Shown piece by piece: positions 37,402-43,141 of a DNA stretch of 64,000 nucleotides (position 1 is its first letter; each line of letters opens with the position of its first letter). A model generated the notes under the pieces. The model saw only the letters and a list, made by a program, of their open reading frames with translations. It had not been told where the DNA came from and did not search any database. The stretch is from Haloferax marisrubri (GTDB lineage Archaea; Halobacteriota; Halobacteria; Halobacteriales; Haloferacaceae), in assembly GCF_001469875.2 (NCBI RefSeq), contig NZ_LOPW02000001.1:124001-188000 (forward strand), given 5' to 3'. Made by a program: the position numbers and the translations under genes.

Positions 37402-37504
37402 ACCACGTAACGGGCCGAAAACTCCCGTAGACGGCGTGTGACAACCATCCACGGTGGGTTCCGCGTTCGGTACGTTTTTCGCCAGCGCGACACATCACTG
37501 GGGT

Positions 37505-38284
37505 ATGTCCGGAACCCTCGACCACGTGATGATTCGCGTCGAAGACCTCGAGGAGTCGCTCGACTGGTACACGACCCATCTCGGCTACGAAGAGAAGGGT
37601 CGCTGGGAGGCCGACACGTTCACCAACGTCTACCTCGGCCCCGAGGACCTCCACGAGGAGGGCGCGGTCCTCGAACTCACCTACAACCACGGCGACAACA
37701 CCTACGAGATGGGCGACGCGTGGGGCCACATCGCGGTCCGCGTCCCCGAGGACGAACTCGAATCGTCCTACCAGCAGCTCATGGACGAGGGCGTCGAGGA
37801 CTACCGCGACCCCGAGTCCTGCGGCGGCCGCTACGCGTTCGTCAAGGACCCCGACGGCCACGAGGTCGAAATCGTCAAGCGCGACCACGGCGCGAAGTGG
37901 AGCCTCGACCACACGATGATTCGCGTCGAGGACGCCGACGAGGCGCTCGGCTTCTGGACCCGGAAGTTCGGCTACGAACACACCGGTCGCTGGGAGTCCG
38001 ACACCTTCGCGAACTACTTCATGAAGCCCGAGGGCGCAGCCGAAGAGGCGATGGCCGTCGAACTCACCTACAACTACGACGGTCGGAGCTACGAGATGGG
38101 CGACGCGTGGGGCCATCTCGCGGTCAGCGCCGACGACCTCCACGAGTACTGGGAGACGCTCATGGAGCGCGAGGCCGAAGACTACCGCGACCCCGAGTCC
38201 TGCGACGACATGTTCGCGTTCACGAAGGACCCCGACGGCCACGAAATCGAGGTCATCCCGGCCGACTTCGAGTCACCCGAATAA
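37505..38284 (+). CDS. gloA: Tandem glyoxalase I-like VOC protein
   Basis: A 259-residue protein made of two similar VOC domains (residues 1-128 and 130-259). Each half keeps the four metal ligands in GloA-like context: LDHVMIRV / LDHTMIRV (His), VLELTYN / AVELTYN (Glu), WGHIAVRV / WGHLAVS (His) and HEVEIV / HEIEVI (Glu). Both active sites therefore look intact, as in fused eukaryotic glyoxalases. It should isomerise the thiol adduct of methylglyoxal; haloarchaea use gamma-glutamylcysteine rather than glutathione. mgsA at 1605 makes the substrate. A lone single-domain protein would be about half this length. Confidence 0.88.
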   Translation: MSGTLDHVMIRVEDLEESLDWYTTHLGYEEKGRWEADTFTNVYLGPEDLHEEGAVLELTYNHGDNTYEMGDAWGHIAVRVPEDELESSYQQLMDEGVEDYRDPESCGGRYAFVKDPDGHEVEIVKRDHGAKWSLDHTMIRVEDADEALGFWTRKFGYEHTGRWESDTFANYFMKPEGAAEEAMAVELTYNYDGRSYEMGDAWGHLAVSADDLHEYWETLMEREAEDYRDPESCDDMFAFTKDPDGHEIEVIPADFESPE

Positions 38285-38352
38285 CACGTATTCGTTCTAA
38301 CACGTCCTCGTTCCTGTTTATTTACTGAACAATACGCGCGTTGCGACGCTCT

Positions 38353-38397
38353 CTTCGGAGAGATATTCCACAAAGTATTTATCCAATCTCCGGAGAG
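38353..38397 (+). promoter_or_regulatory. S-layer gene promoter: TATA box flanked by repeated CTYCGGAGAG
   Basis: TATTTATCC at 38376-38384 is a good archaeal TATA box and predicts transcription near 38406, leaving a leader of about 105 nt, unusual in a genome of leaderless genes. It is bracketed by CTTCGGAGAG (38353-38362) and CTCCGGAGAG (38388-38397), which match at nine of ten bases. The second contains the palindrome CTCCGGAG. Operator function is inference. Confidence 0.5.
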
Positions 38398-38510
38398 TCG
38401 CTTTCGTACCCCTACCCAAGGTGAAAACCAGCGAGTAATCCCTCGCCCGACCTACCCACGGGCGTACGGGGCAGAAAGCTGTTTCGCCACTTATAGACCC
38501 ATCTATAACA

Positions 38511-41075
38511 ATGACAGCAAACAAACAAGTTCGCGCGGTTCTGCTCGCTGCGCTGATGGTTTTCTCGGTCTTCGCCGGGTCCATCGCGTTCACGGGCACT
38601 GCTGCTGCGGCGGCTACGTCGGCTACGGTATCTTCTGATACTGTCGACAAAGGCCCGTCTGCATCCGTCGATGTTACCGTTAACTCTGGCGGAGCGAACG
38701 ATGTTCACGTATGGCTCGACCTGAACGACGACGGCTATTACAACGCCTCGGAACCGAACACCACGGAAACCGCAGGCTCCCCGGCAACCCTCTCGCTCTC
38801 GATTCCGGAGAGCGTCTCCACCGGTGAGTACAACGTCTCTGCCGCCGAGAGCGCTAGCCTGACCGCCGGTACCACCCAGCAGGAGGCTTACGACACGCTC
38901 GATGTCGTTGCCGCTGACCCCGCTGGCTTCAACTCGGCGACCCACTACGATGACGGCACGCCGAAGGTCGAAGTCGCCTTCGACGAGGACGTCACCGTCA
39001 ACGAGATGAACGTCACGGACGGCGAGACGAACCTCTCGCAGTCCCTCTCCGTCTCCAACGGTCAGGTCATCGTCACGCTCAGCCAGGTCTACACGGACGA
39101 CCTCGAAGTCACGTACAACGTGTCTGACTCGTCCGGTAACACGGCCTCGGCGACCGAGGACGTGACCTTCGCGCCCGTCTACGTCGCGAACAACTCCAAC
39201 AACACGGCCTACAAGGGCTCGAACGTTGCAGTTGTCGCCGGCACGACCGACACCTCCGTCGAGGTCGAGGGCGTTGACGACGACAACAACTACCAGTTCT
39301 CTGGTTCCACCGGTGACAACAGTCAGGTCTTCATCTTCGACACCGAAGATCAGGCCCTCGACACCTACGAGTTCACCATCGGCGGTGTGCAGCAGGCTCA
39401 GGTCGACGTTCGCGACCTCGGCTTCGAGCTCACCGTTGACGACCTCAACGTCACGACCAAGGACGGTCTCGAAGGCTCCGTCTCGGCCAACGCGGGCGAC
39501 CGCACCGTCGACGTCGTCGCACTTGACGACGACGGCGACGAGGTCGAGGACACCGAGACCACCGTCACGCTCGACGGCCAGGGTGAAGCAGACTTCAACC
39601 TGAGCTCGGTCGACGCTGGCGAGTACACGATTGAGGCGACCGACGCCTTCACGGGCGTCACGCTCGAGTCCGACACGGTCACCGTCTCGAAGGCCAAGGA
39701 CTCCTCGGGTGACTTCGCGTCGTCCGTCATCAACGAACAGGTCGGCGACATCGCCGAAATCACCGTCACGCTCGACGGTACTGACGAAGCAGAGATTCAG
39801 GTCGGCGCTAACGACCTCGGTTACAGCGCGAACGTCTCCGTCGAAGACGGTAACGACGACGGTGAGGTCACGCTGCTGTTCAACACGTACGCACCGAACA
39901 AGACGTCCTCGTTCGACGTTGACGACAGCGACGACGACCTCGTCGTCGACGACATCACCACGGAAATCGACGGTGAGCCCCTCGACGCCGGCGACTACGA
40001 CCTCGAAATCGCCACCGGTGGCGAAGCCGACAACGTCGCGACGCTCGTCATCGAAGAGCGCAGCACCGAAAGTGTCTCCACCTGGACGGCACCGACGAGC
40101 GCTGACCTCACCGAGACCGAAGACGTCTACGACGCGATCGAGAACGAGAATCTGACGCAGAGCGACTCGCTGGCTAACGGCGACGTCGTCGTCACGCAGA
40201 TCTCCGCGACGGGCCTCGAAGGCGCGTTCGACGCGTCGAACTTCGACGCCCTCTCGGGTACGCAGTTCAACCTCACGATCGAGCAGACGAACCCCGGCCC
40301 GAACCGCGAGGCGAAGGTCCTGGGCATCAACAGCTCGAGCGCCACGATCATCGCTGACGGTGACAACGACACGTACTTCATCGTCTACGACCTCGACGAC
40401 GTCTCTGCCTCGCGCACGGACTCCTACGACAACACCTCGACGCTCTACACCGTTGAGGACGACGACGCGTTCAACGCGACGTTCACCGTCCTCGAAGACG
40501 GTGACCTCGCCGAGGACGATGAGGAGACCTCCGACGAGTTCGAAGTCGTCGAACCCGAACTCAGCCTCGACGAGGACGAGTTCGCGGTCTCCAACGCCGC
40601 CGAGCAGTCCATCTCGGGCACGGCCAGCGTCGCCCCCGGTACGGAGCTCACCATCCGCGTGACCTCCGACGGCGACACCCAGCCGCGCTTCCTGAAGACT
40701 GCCTCCGCGTACGTGCAGGCTGACGGCACGTTCGCCGCGGCGTTCGACTTCTCGGAGCAGAACATCAACGACACGTTCGAAGTAGAGGCCTCCGTCGACT
40801 CCGGCACGGCCGAAGACGCGACCGCTGACGGTATCGTCGGCGAAGCCACGGAGACGACCACGGCCGCGGAAACGACCACGACCGAGGAATCCACGGAAAC
40901 GGCAACCGAGACCGAAGAGCCGACCGAGGAGCCCACGGAAACGGCAACCGCGACCGAAGAGCCGACTGAGGAGCCGACCGAGGAGACCACCGAGTCCAGC
41001 ACGCCTGGCTTCGGTGTCGTTGTCGCCCTCGTCGCCCTCGTCGCCGCGGCACTCCTCGCCGTCCGCCGCGACTAA
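38511..41075 (+). CDS. csg: S-layer glycoprotein precursor with PGF-CTERM tail
   Basis: An 854-residue surface protein. Residues 1-34 or so are the characteristic haloarchaeal surface-glycoprotein signal (MTANKQVRAVLLAALMVFSV...). The mature part is very acidic and beta-rich, with about 19 N-glycosylation sequons (N-x-S/T). Near the C terminus is a Thr/Glu/Pro-rich stalk (TEEPTEEPTE repeats), likely O-glycosylated, then the tripartite sorting tail TPGFGVVVALVALVAAALLAVRRD: PGF motif, hydrophobic helix, basic end. Archaeosortase A, encoded next, should remove this tail and attach lipid. The sequence differs from the S-layer protein I recall from H. volcanii beyond the signal and tail, so this is a divergent type or paralogue. 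Confidence 0.92.
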   Translation: MTANKQVRAVLLAALMVFSVFAGSIAFTGTAAAAATSATVSSDTVDKGPSASVDVTVNSGGANDVHVWLDLNDDGYYNASEPNTTETAGSPATLSLSIPESVSTGEYNVSAAESASLTAGTTQQEAYDTLDVVAADPAGFNSATHYDDGTPKVEVAFDEDVTVNEMNVTDGETNLSQSLSVSNGQVIVTLSQVYTDDLEVTYNVSDSSGNTASATEDVTFAPVYVANNSNNTAYKGSNVAVVAGTTDTSVEVEGVDDDNNYQFSGSTGDNSQVFIFDTEDQALDTYEFTIGGVQQAQVDVRDLGFELTVDDLNVTTKDGLEGSVSANAGDRTVDVVALDDDGDEVEDTETTVTLDGQGEADFNLSSVDAGEYTIEATDAFTGVTLESDTVTVSKAKDSSGDFASSVINEQVGDIAEITVTLDGTDEAEIQVGANDLGYSANVSVEDGNDDGEVTLLFNTYAPNKTSSFDVDDSDDDLVVDDITTEIDGEPLDAGDYDLEIATGGEADNVATLVIEERSTESVSTWTAPTSADLTETEDVYDAIENENLTQSDSLANGDVVVTQISATGLEGAFDASNFDALSGTQFNLTIEQTNPGPNREAKVLGINSSSATIIADGDNDTYFIVYDLDDVSASRTDSYDNTSTLYTVEDDDAFNATFTVLEDGDLAEDDEETSDEFEVVEPELSLDEDEFAVSNAAEQSISGTASVAPGTELTIRVTSDGDTQPRFLKTASAYVQADGTFAAAFDFSEQNINDTFEVEASVDSGTAEDATADGIVGEATETTTAAETTTTEESTETATETEEPTEEPTETATATEEPTEEPTEETTESSTPGFGVVVALVALVAAALLAVRRD

Positions 41076-41089
41076 CTTCGACTGATACC

Positions 41090-41125
41090 ACCGGGCTTCG
41101 TCCCGGTCCCCTCAACACTTCTTTA
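41090..41125 (+). terminator. Probable terminator of the S-layer gene
   Basis: ACCGGG-CTTCGT-CCCGGT forms a six-base-pair hairpin (41090-41107), followed by the pyrimidine-rich tract CCCTCAACACTTCTTTATT. It starts 15 bp after the stop codon. Confidence 0.55.
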
Positions 41126-41211
41126 TTGATCGACTCCACAGCGGCGGCGCTGTGCTGTGCGTTCGGGCCGCCGGACCGGTCGGACGAGCTCGATACCCGG
41201 AACGACAAGGG

Positions 41212-41219
41212 ATTTATTC
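41212..41219 (+). promoter_or_regulatory. TATA box for archaeosortase A
   Basis: ATTTATTC lies about 26 nt above the ATG at 41241, predicting a leaderless artA transcript independent of the S-layer gene. Confidence 0.5.
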
Positions 41220-41240
41220 GGTCCTCCGCATCCATTACGT

Positions 41241-42161
41241 ATGCCCGGTCTCCTCTCCGACATCCTCGCGTGGGTGGTCATCGGAACCTTCGTCGCCGGC
41301 GCGGTCGTCAACGGGCGGAACCGCGACCTCGGGCGGCGGGTGATGTCCGCAGCGTGGGTGTTGTTCGCGCTCTTCTGGCTCCAACTCATCCCTCACTTCA
41401 CGCTCGTCCACAGGAGCTACATCGAGGGGATTTTGACTATCGTGGCCGTCCCGGCGTCGCTGTACGCCGGCTGGCTCCTCTACAACGGCCGCGACACGCT
41501 GTTCGTCCTCTCGCGCGCCGTCGCCGCCATGGGCGTCGTCTACCTTCCGTTCGAGACGATTCCCGCGTTCACGCTCTTCGGGGCGACCGTCCCCGCACCC
41601 CGCGGCATTCTCATGGAGTCCGTCGCGGCGCAGACGCGCTTCCTCATCGAATCGCTCGGCTACACGCCGCAGATGATTGTCGGCGACGAGGGCTACCTGA
41701 ACACGTTCCTGTGGATGCAGGGCTCTCACCGAATCGAGATCTCGGTCGTTCTCGCCTGCACCGGCCTCGGGAGCATCGCCATCTTCGCCGGCCTCATCGC
41801 CGCCGTCGACGCGCCGATGCGCCGGAAGCTCCGCGGACTCGCCATCGCCGTCCCCATCATCTACGCGCTGAACCTGCTTCGGACGACGTTCATCACCATC
41901 TCGGTCGGCAAGCAGTACTTCCACCTGTTCGTCGACGAGATTCTGTTCCTCTTCGGGTCGTCCGACCCGTATATGGTGTCGTTTTTCATCTCCGACCGCA
42001 TCATCAGCCAGGGGCTCGCGGTCGTCGCGCTCGTGGGAATCACCTATCTCGTCGTCCACGAAGTGCCGGAACTCCTCACGGTCATCGAGGACGTGCTCTA
42101 CATGGTGACCGGCGAAGAGTACGACCTCAGAAGCGAGTTAGGGCTCGACGGGCGAGCGTAG
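41241..42161 (+). CDS. artA: Archaeosortase A
   Basis: A 306-residue protein with seven to eight membrane segments. Counting from the ATG, the catalytic cysteine in VLACTGLGS is residue 173, the arginine in NLLRTTFI is 214, and the arginine in FISDRIIS is 253; all three match the positions shown to be essential in Haloferax volcanii ArtA. The enzyme cleaves PGF-CTERM proteins and enables their lipid anchoring on the cell surface. It starts 165 bp after the S-layer glycoprotein, one of its expected substrates, and has its own promoter. Confidence 0.96.
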   Translation: MPGLLSDILAWVVIGTFVAGAVVNGRNRDLGRRVMSAAWVLFALFWLQLIPHFTLVHRSYIEGILTIVAVPASLYAGWLLYNGRDTLFVLSRAVAAMGVVYLPFETIPAFTLFGATVPAPRGILMESVAAQTRFLIESLGYTPQMIVGDEGYLNTFLWMQGSHRIEISVVLACTGLGSIAIFAGLIAAVDAPMRRKLRGLAIAVPIIYALNLLRTTFITISVGKQYFHLFVDEILFLFGSSDPYMVSFFISDRIISQGLAVVALVGITYLVVHEVPELLTVIEDVLYMVTGEEYDLRSELGLDGRA

Positions 42162-42198: not shown

Positions 42199-42234
42199 GT
42201 TAGTGTTCGTCGAACAGTTAGTGTTCGTCGAACA
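42199..42234. repeat. Tandem duplication of 18 bp over the dph5 stop codon
   Basis: GTTAGTGTTCGTCGAACA occurs twice back to back. Each copy, read on the minus strand, encodes the end of Dph5 (LFDEH) and a stop, so the second copy lies beyond the stop and does not alter the protein. Confidence 0.9.
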
Positions 42235-43024
42235 GTTCCTCAGGCGCGCCGCCGAGCGCCGAGAGCGCGTCGGCTTCGACGTGGTGGACCTCGCCGGGAA
42301 TGATGAGCATGTGGAGCGGGTCGCCGAAGTCGCGCTCTGCGAGCGCCGACAGGCGGTCCGCGGCGACGACCGGGTCCGGACTGCCCGCCCGGCAGACTGC
42401 CACGCCGAGGGCGTCGCCGTCCCAGTGTTCGGCGAAGAGTTCCGCGGCGTAGTCGGCGGTCATGTACTGGTCGCCGTCGACCTCGACGCCGCGGCGACCC
42501 TCCCAGTCGACCTTGATGTCGAGGTAGACGAGCGTATGCAAGCCGAGTTCGCGGTTCGCTTCGAGGGAGTCCACGACGCTTTTCGGCACCGGGTCGCCGC
42601 CATGGACGTACGGAAACGGGAGCGTGACGGCCTTCCCGAAGCGGTAGTTCTGGAGTCCGGTCAGGCCGCTGGCCGCGGACTGAGCGGTCACGCCGTGGAT
42701 GAGTCGCGTCTCGATACCGCGGTCTTCGGCGCGGAGACGAAGGTCGACGTGCGTGGTCGAAATCATCGTGTCGCCGGCGGTGAGGAACGCGACGTGTTCG
42801 TCTTCCGCGGCGTCGAGTATCGCCCCGGGGTCCTGTTCGACGCCGGCCCGGTCCCGGACCTCGATGTCGATGTCGTGGTAGGCTTCGAGCTCCTCGACGG
42901 TCGCGCCGACGAGGTGGCTCGTGTAGAACTCCGCGAAGGCACGGTCGGCGTCAGCGAGCGCCTCCCGGCCTTCGACGGTGACGGAGCGCTCGTCGTACAG
43001 ACCGAGTCCGATGAAAGTGAGCAT
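42218..43024 (-). CDS. dph5: Diphthine synthase
   Basis: A 268-residue SAM-dependent methyltransferase, MLTFIGLGLYDERSVTVEG onward, with EHVAFLTAGDTMISTTHVDLRL, IHGVTAQSAASGLTGLQNYRFGKAVTLPFP, and the VYLDIKVD strand, all family signatures. It trimethylates the modified histidine of elongation factor 2 in diphthamide synthesis. ATG at 43024 matches the family start. It converges on artA. The stop codon sits in a perfect 18-bp tandem repeat. Confidence 0.94.
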   Translation of the reverse strand: MLTFIGLGLYDERSVTVEGREALADADRAFAEFYTSHLVGATVEELEAYHDIDIEVRDRAGVEQDPGAILDAAEDEHVAFLTAGDTMISTTHVDLRLRAEDRGIETRLIHGVTAQSAASGLTGLQNYRFGKAVTLPFPYVHGGDPVPKSVVDSLEANRELGLHTLVYLDIKVDWEGRRGVEVDGDQYMTADYAAELFAEHWDGDALGVAVCRAGSPDPVVAADRLSALAERDFGDPLHMLIIPGEVHHVEADALSALGGAPEELFDEH

Positions 43025-43141
43025 GTCCGTGTTCTGTCGCGGGCGGTGATAAGCGGTGTGACCTCCGGTGAGACGGCCGATACCCATTGTGTGGGATTAC
43101 CCAGCACACTTTATTGTAGTGGAGGAAAATATTACCTCCGT

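Follow-up and report, generated by a model that had tools for sequence, protein, structure and literature searches.

We analyzed a 64,000-nt stretch of the Haloferax marisrubri genome (contig NZ_LOPW02000001.1, positions 124,001 to 188,000 of the forward strand; hereafter the window), in which an S-layer glycoprotein gene, csg1, is followed by artA, the gene for archaeosortase A, and is preceded by a conserved 5' leader that begins with a 13-nt box. The following features were found at the locus (positions are those of the window):

37454..38284, + strand: glyoxalase-family gene (TIGR00068/PF00903 matches), the conserved upstream neighbour in most genus members and several other genera
38370..38382, + strand: promoter of csg1, ACAAAGTATTTAT, resembling a transcription factor B recognition element (BRE) and TATA box; a conserved ACAAAG..TTTA box
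38406..38510, + strand: 5' leader of csg1, 105 nt, with a predicted transcript start, from 10 aligned Haloferax loci, of which 9 could be read throughout
38406..38418, + strand: leader box 1, GTACCCCTACCCA, a single match in the window with 0 or 1 mismatch (0.07 matches expected)
38433..38437, + strand: leader box 2, GAGTA, the second conserved patch in an alignment of 95 leaders
38511..41075, + strand: csg1, S-layer glycoprotein precursor, 854 aa (NF041335, 1489.5 bits)
40989..41072, + strand: PGF-CTERM sorting signal, csg1 residues 827-854 (TIGR04126, 47 bits; cut-off 24.5)
41090..41126, + strand: terminator-like hairpin of csg1 with its T-rich tail, kept in 10/10 aligned Haloferax loci; a weak fold alone
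41212..41219, + strand: TATA-like box of artA, which reads GGGATTTATTCGG in the window and lies about 25 nt upstream of the artA start; a leaderless transcript is predicted
41241..42161, + strand: artA, archaeosortase A, 306 aa (TIGR04125, 340.6 bits; cut-off 75)
42218..43087, - strand: dph5, diphthine synthase (TIGR00522, 244 bits), the conserved downstream neighbour, in the same place in most regions examined

In profile searches, the csg1 product matched the NCBIfam family NF041335, 'ArtA-dependent S-layer glycoprotein', over residues 1-854 and above the cut-off of 1100 bits. It contains a haloarchaeal surface signal peptide (TIGR04207), a BGTF surface domain, tandem immunoglobulin-like (Ig-like) domains, a threonine/glutamate-rich stalk and the PGF-CTERM signal, and its stop codon lies 165 bp before the artA start. 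These data confirmed the initial annotation, made from the sequence without database searches, which had placed a PGF-CTERM S-layer precursor directly upstream of artA. As that annotation had described, the csg1 product also differed strongly from its H. volcanii counterpart, scoring 58 bits against TIGR04216, the HVO_2072 family, whose cut-off is 400 bits. The protein type is already known: it is that of NF041335 and of the Haloferax (Hfx.) gibbonsii S-layer. By family membership the csg1 product is probably an S-layer glycoprotein and, with PGF-CTERM present, ArtA processing and lipid anchoring are predicted for it.

The AlphaFold model of the csg1 product (17 sequences) consisted nearly entirely of beta strands, with a mean predicted local distance difference test score (pLDDT) of 79.2 and a predicted template modelling score (pTM) of 0.44. 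When this model was compared with 978 chains by VIA-align, the top match was 7ptp_A, the H. volcanii S-layer (Z 12.5, root-mean-square deviation 10.6, 438 residues, 17% identity), and complement and macroglobulin Ig-like chains came next, with Z of 11-12. Because these chains nearly equal 7ptp_A, the match shows the shared architecture, not a close relation. A single-sequence csg1 query of solved structures gave no match at E up to 1, and an alignment-based query found 7ptp only, with a profile match over the C-terminal part. Like csg1, the gene for HVO_2072 (PDB 7ptp) encodes PGF-CTERM and tandem Ig-like domains, and the HVO_2072-type genes of three Haloferax genomes have the same leader box. 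However, these genes belong to a different protein family, lie at a different locus and have no artA neighbour, as the initial annotation had stated for H. volcanii.

The S-layer glycoprotein of Hfx. gibbonsii (A0A0K1IRS6; ABY42_04395; HfgLR_04635) belongs to the same family as csg1, to which its locus tags can probably be linked. The gene of Hfx. gibbonsii ATCC 33959 is 88% identical to csg1 and adjoins artA. In the excerpts available of the two papers on it, this protein is presented as a new kind of Haloferax S-layer, with mass-spectrometric confirmation and 24% identity to HVO_2072, and the surface-protein mass spectrometry covers relatives of csg1 (PMC5867893, PMC7921747); artA, the gene surroundings and the leader are absent from the same excerpts.

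The artA neighbourhoods were compared in a sample of 59 genomes, 15 of them of the genus Haloferax (labelled from G000, the window genome, onward). In the 58 genomes with an artA match (the remaining one had none), the region upstream of artA was read over up to 10 kb, as far as the contig extended. NF041335 was over the cut-off in 11/59 genomes, all of them genus members, and G011 had the same gene just below it, at 966 bits; with G011 counted, the csg1-type family was present in 12 of the 15 genus genomes. The remaining three, G001, G003 and G014 (the volcanii-type genomes), carried a TIGR04216 gene instead (991-1066 bits), and none of the 12 had one over the cut-off. The G003 protein was very closely related to the H. 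volcanii protein of known structure (7ptp, 1345 bits). The S-layer open reading frame (ORF) ended 162-245 bp before artA in 11 of the 15 genus genomes, while in G010 the adjacency was undecidable, artA and the S-layer gene both lying at contig ends; in the three volcanii-type genomes the glyoxalase gene directly adjoined artA. Loci named in the csg1 search include those of Hfx. prahovense, gibbonsii, larsenii, elongans and marinum and of strain Q22. Among the 43 genomes from other genera, 15 (of 15 genera and 6 families) had a PGF-CTERM ORF of at least 600 aa that ended within 500 bp before artA, and in six further genomes a PGF-CTERM ORF ended within 2.2 kb of artA. The gene order glyoxalase - S-layer - artA - dph5 recurred in other genera and families.

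A strict exclusion of the HVO_2072-type gene by an artA-adjacent S-layer gene was considered and rejected, as both were present in 16 of 22 tested genomes (families f4 and f17). In the window's own family, f1, none of 22 TIGR04216-bearing genomes had an S-layer gene directly before artA, a within-family pattern only. In another genus, at G016:C1:1039500-1040401, artA is directly preceded by what is left of an S-layer gene, interrupted by an internal stop, and a fuller S-layer-like gene is present elsewhere; this genus has perhaps been caught losing its artA-adjacent copy. In a related genus (G021:C1:805889-810806, L099), no S-layer gene occupies the position next to artA, and one of NF041335 type lies across artA, beyond dph5.

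The direction of change was analyzed with a tree of seven neighbouring genes (1958 columns, 19 rows; a given gene was missing in up to 8 of the 19 rows). The three volcanii-type genomes (support 98/96) were nested in an eight-genome clade (100/100), and csg1 was present in the remaining members of that clade and on all deeper Haloferax branches. The window genome lies inside the same clade; the seven-gene tree gave it no resolved sister, and a smaller three-gene tree placed it as the sister of the volcanii clade. One loss is enough within Haloferax. At the empty csg1 site, the glyoxalase gene and artA were 157-163 bp apart in all three volcanii-type genomes, and the match between these genomes and the window stopped at 38283-38285 and restarted at 41129-41137. 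With these boundaries, the empty site shows that the whole unit was lost.

The search for a second csg in the genome, which the initial annotation had proposed, found csg2, a full-length relative at G000:C10:719189-721930 with 45% identity to csg1 by blastp (52% in another comparison), adjoining two pilin genes. Thus the suggestion of a second S-layer gene holds in that such a relative exists in the genome, but not in the sense in which it was meant. The csg1 and csg2 proteins formed separate clades (Shimodaira-Hasegawa approximate likelihood ratio test, 98 and 100). csg2 was present in 11 of the 12 csg1-bearing genomes, the assembly of the twelfth (G006) being too fragmented to judge, and its upstream flank was common to all 10 of the other csg1-bearing genomes that hold it. 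From all three volcanii-type genomes csg2 is cleanly absent: its flanks lie 102-140 bp apart there, and the corresponding distance in the window genome is about 3.95 kb. The protein HfgLR_11210, presented in the available part of PMC9973310 as a second S-layer protein and the likely receptor of HFTV1, matches csg2 and is encoded beside two tandem pilin genes; it is a paralogue, not csg1 itself. In two genomes (G002:C47:370747-373134, L149; G004:C20:135608-137995, L150) the csg2 product keeps the signal peptide and the residues from about 149, and the mature N-terminal part is replaced in comparison with other csg2 proteins. A third NF041335 copy, frame-broken and outside the csg2 synteny, was seen in Hfx. 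elongans (G010:C5:98757-101194, L151).

The volcanii-type csg lies within about 35 kb of G003 that have no syntenic counterpart in G000, G007 or G008, and adjoins a pilin gene and genes read by eye as sugar-nucleotide genes. A tree of 32 TIGR04216 proteins left this gene unplaced (nearest by path was an f12 protein, at 1.79; it was sister to one f1 protein at 87/92), and therefore no donor is claimed. It has been proposed that one of two Haloferax clades probably took its S-layer from a more distant lineage, the clade not being named in the excerpt available (PMC5867893). Gene order and empty sites, both read directly from the genomes, together with the tree, suggest that it was the volcanii clade that acquired its S-layer from outside. 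In Haloquadratum walsbyi, according to the part of PMC3119063 available, an S-layer gene on a variable island was likewise gained laterally.

The initial annotation had also raised the possibility of relocation, in which csg moved beside artA in the window lineage from its place in H. volcanii. In favour of this, csg lies elsewhere in 3 of the 15 genus genomes. However, it is H. volcanii that has the derived arrangement: the pairing is shared by 11 of the 15 genus genomes (plus one split) and by the 15 genera outside it, and a comparison showing most Haloferax genomes to share it was what the initial annotation had itself named as evidence against relocation. The csg1 and HVO_2072 proteins are, moreover, of different families, the volcanii-clade csg region has no syntenic counterpart in the other genomes examined, and the volcanii clade is nested. 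Relocation is thus highly improbable, and already refuted unless the neighbour-gene tree misleads.

The region between csg1 and artA was examined for signs of separate expression. The hairpin ACCGGG(CUUCGU)CCCGGU at 41090-41107 is followed by a T-rich stretch; its fold alone was unremarkable (z -1.25), and a scan for bacterial terminators reported nothing. The promoter-like box of artA is retained in the csg1-bearing Haloferax and in all three csg1-less genomes. A promoter-like box for each gene and the intervening hairpin argue against a shared transcript, and co-location rather than an operon, as first annotated, is supported by these predicted signals.

The ten aligned Haloferax csg1 upstream regions showed a TATA box followed by about 105 conserved nt, and the leader is predicted to start about 30 nt downstream of the TATA box. 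The 13-mer GTACCCCTACCCA, in which position 9 is A or G, was also found upstream of csg2 and of the volcanii-type genes. Among 90 distinct leader segments, selected for carrying the motif, the distance from the start of the TATA-like box to the 13-mer was 27-33 nt in 88 and exactly 30 nt in 51, and the median distance from the 13-mer to the start codon was 116 nt. Conservation of the 13-mer was far above that of the flanking sequence on both sides. The csg mRNA leader of Halobacterium is reportedly 111 nt long, which would place the 13-mer at the mRNA 5' end.

The specificity of the 13-mer was determined with 83 distinct S-layer-type ORFs from the order, gathered regardless of the motif, near-identical orthologues included. 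The 13-mer was present upstream in exact form in 43, with at most 2 mismatches in 59 and with at most 3 in 65, and the reverse-complement control at up to 2 mismatches gave 0/83. The 59 box-bearing ORFs span 24 genera and 9 families (read from genome tables), whatever the protein type. At up to 2 mismatches, the 13-mer was upstream of artA in 1/58 cases, of dph5 in 0/39 and of the glyoxalase gene in 0/28. When 116 genomes of the order were searched for exact copies, 79 matches were obtained in 64 genomes, versus 20 for the reversed pattern. Of the 79, 46 were followed by signal-peptide, PGF-CTERM ORFs of at least 400 aa and another 6, with a TATA box, by ORFs of 783-1022 aa that have a signal peptide and a C-terminus outside the PGF-CTERM pattern used, so that 52 preceded S-layer-like ORFs with a TATA box. 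The 27 matches without a TATA box comprised 12 that belong to one conserved hairpin on the opposite strand and 15 scattered ones. The window genome has exactly two exact copies, before csg1 and csg2. Six other PGF-CTERM or surface-domain loci in it had no 13-mer at 0 or 1 mismatch, and one of them (L005) had one 2-mismatch copy somewhere inside the locus. A search of the csg1 leader region (38280-38600) against Rfam 15 gave 0 matches at E up to 1.

In viral contigs, an S-layer-like ORF stood behind 1 of 28 TATA-plus-box stretches. This viral-classified contig (IMGVR_UViG_3300026962_000013, 2233-4732; L363) has the leader box and then an S-layer-like ORF of 790 aa, and further ORFs resembling, by eye, transcription factor B and integrase; S-layer genes may thus travel with their own leader.

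These results bear on whether the csg1-artA pairing is kept through inheritance alone, with the leader moving along with S-layer cassettes through descent and recombination. The same genome has other PGF-CTERM loci, adjacency is freely lost, and the volcanii-type genomes live without the pairing, all of which would suit synteny without function. However, conservation of the 13-mer far exceeds that of either flank, and it is common to proteins whose middles no longer align at the DNA level. This explanation is possible, though less likely than not.

The data are most probably explained by an ancestral haloarchaeal S-layer locus with an old, inherited pairing, separate transcripts, loss in the volcanii clade, and a leader that serves as an mRNA control element. 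csg1 would encode a lipid-anchored S-layer glycoprotein whose signal peptide directs its export, which is glycosylated, and which ArtA, from the adjoining gene, processes at the PGF-CTERM. It would be transcribed from its own TATA promoter with a leader of about 105 nt, and artA from its own promoter as a leaderless transcript. The H. volcanii clade would have lost csg1 and csg2, their place being taken over by the distantly related HVO_2072-type gene. The 5' end of the S-layer mRNA would carry a fixed GUACCCCUACCCA and then GAGUA, kept across all S-layer protein types. From position and sequence we infer that the leader box acts in the mRNA, where it may raise the stability or translation of the S-layer protein. 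Gene content and order, the empty sites and the conservation and specificity of the leader are direct observations; the transcript start, the role of the leader and ArtA processing are predictions.

Several observations weigh against this interpretation. By the 500-bp rule the pairing is absent in 32 of 58 genomes (one of these undecidable), so there is no strict need for S-layer - artA adjacency. In 24 of the 83 S-layer-type ORFs the leader box has at least 3 mismatches, and the columns of near-100% conservation are inflated because the rows were chosen for few mismatches. The alignment of leaders gave no consensus RNA fold at the leader start, so that an RNA role is argued from position and sequence only, and a start-site or regulator site at the DNA level fits the 13-mer nearly as well. 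Such a DNA element, at +1 to +13, would agree with the TATA-like box lying at a fixed 27-33 nt in 88/90 segments and with the missing fold. However, the 13-mer lies at or after the predicted start, the second patch, GAGTA, lies deeper in the leader, and the leader length is held near the median of 116 nt. A DNA element is a serious possibility that falls somewhat short of an even chance.

The conserved csg1 leader, whose 13-mer is a mark of S-layer genes in much of the order, appears to be new. Neither this element nor a conserved S-layer - artA pair was described in the open literature searched by title and abstract start, though older S-layer gene papers or Haft's archaeosortase paper may hold a description; a literature search with the letters of the 13-mer returned unrelated work only. 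In H. volcanii, 72% of protein-coding transcripts are leaderless, typically the highly expressed ones (PMC4983044, from an excerpt). Against this background, the leader box offers a concrete handle on production of the major surface protein, and it is a one-line test for an S-layer gene in a haloarchaeal genome. A model-organism bias is also corrected: ArtA and the S-layer are studied in H. volcanii, a branch that has lost both ancestral genes for the S-layer and with them the proximity to artA.

The 12 opposite-strand matches were analyzed separately. In 12 of the 116 genomes, from 6 genera and 3 families, the exact complement of the box, UGGGUAGGGGUAC, was the loop at the tip of a hairpin within a conserved leader or small RNA ahead of another gene:

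L283:4426-4588; also L282, L284, L285, L287, L288, L290, L291, L296, L349, L351 and L352: hairpin loci with loop UGGGUAGGGGUAC

A promoter-like box, AACRAGAAAGCTTATACC in most loci, was conserved before the hairpin. The stems were lineage-specific (e.g. CCCCGC/GCGGGG, GGUACC/GGUACC and GCACAUC/GGUGUGC) and paired in 12/12 single folds, by which they were compared, the automatic alignment fold not having recovered the hairpin. The loop was identical in 12/12 because the exact-match search selected these loci, and 10 of the 12 genomes are from one family, whose ten hairpins may represent one event. It is conceivable, though unlikely, that the S-layer mRNA 5' end is an RNA-RNA pairing target, with the box (GUA-CCCC-UAC) and the loop (GUA-GGGG-UAC) forming a kissing complex that sets S-layer synthesis. 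Trans-pairing was rejected as a general reason for the box: in genus g49 of family f12 the box drifts (1 to 4 mismatches; L170, L173, L175 and L177) with the loop still exact, no exact complement occurs in the window genome (reverse count 0), and an exact box and an exact loop occur together only in G071 and G140 among the 116 genomes. Rfam searches of 7 of the 12 loci gave no match, the sole match of the search being an unrelated tRNA in L304, which is not one of the 12, and Pfam gave none for two partial readings of the hairpin-associated ORF. In L283 the ORF after the hairpin begins MEFADWAPVYE and may be MptE-like.

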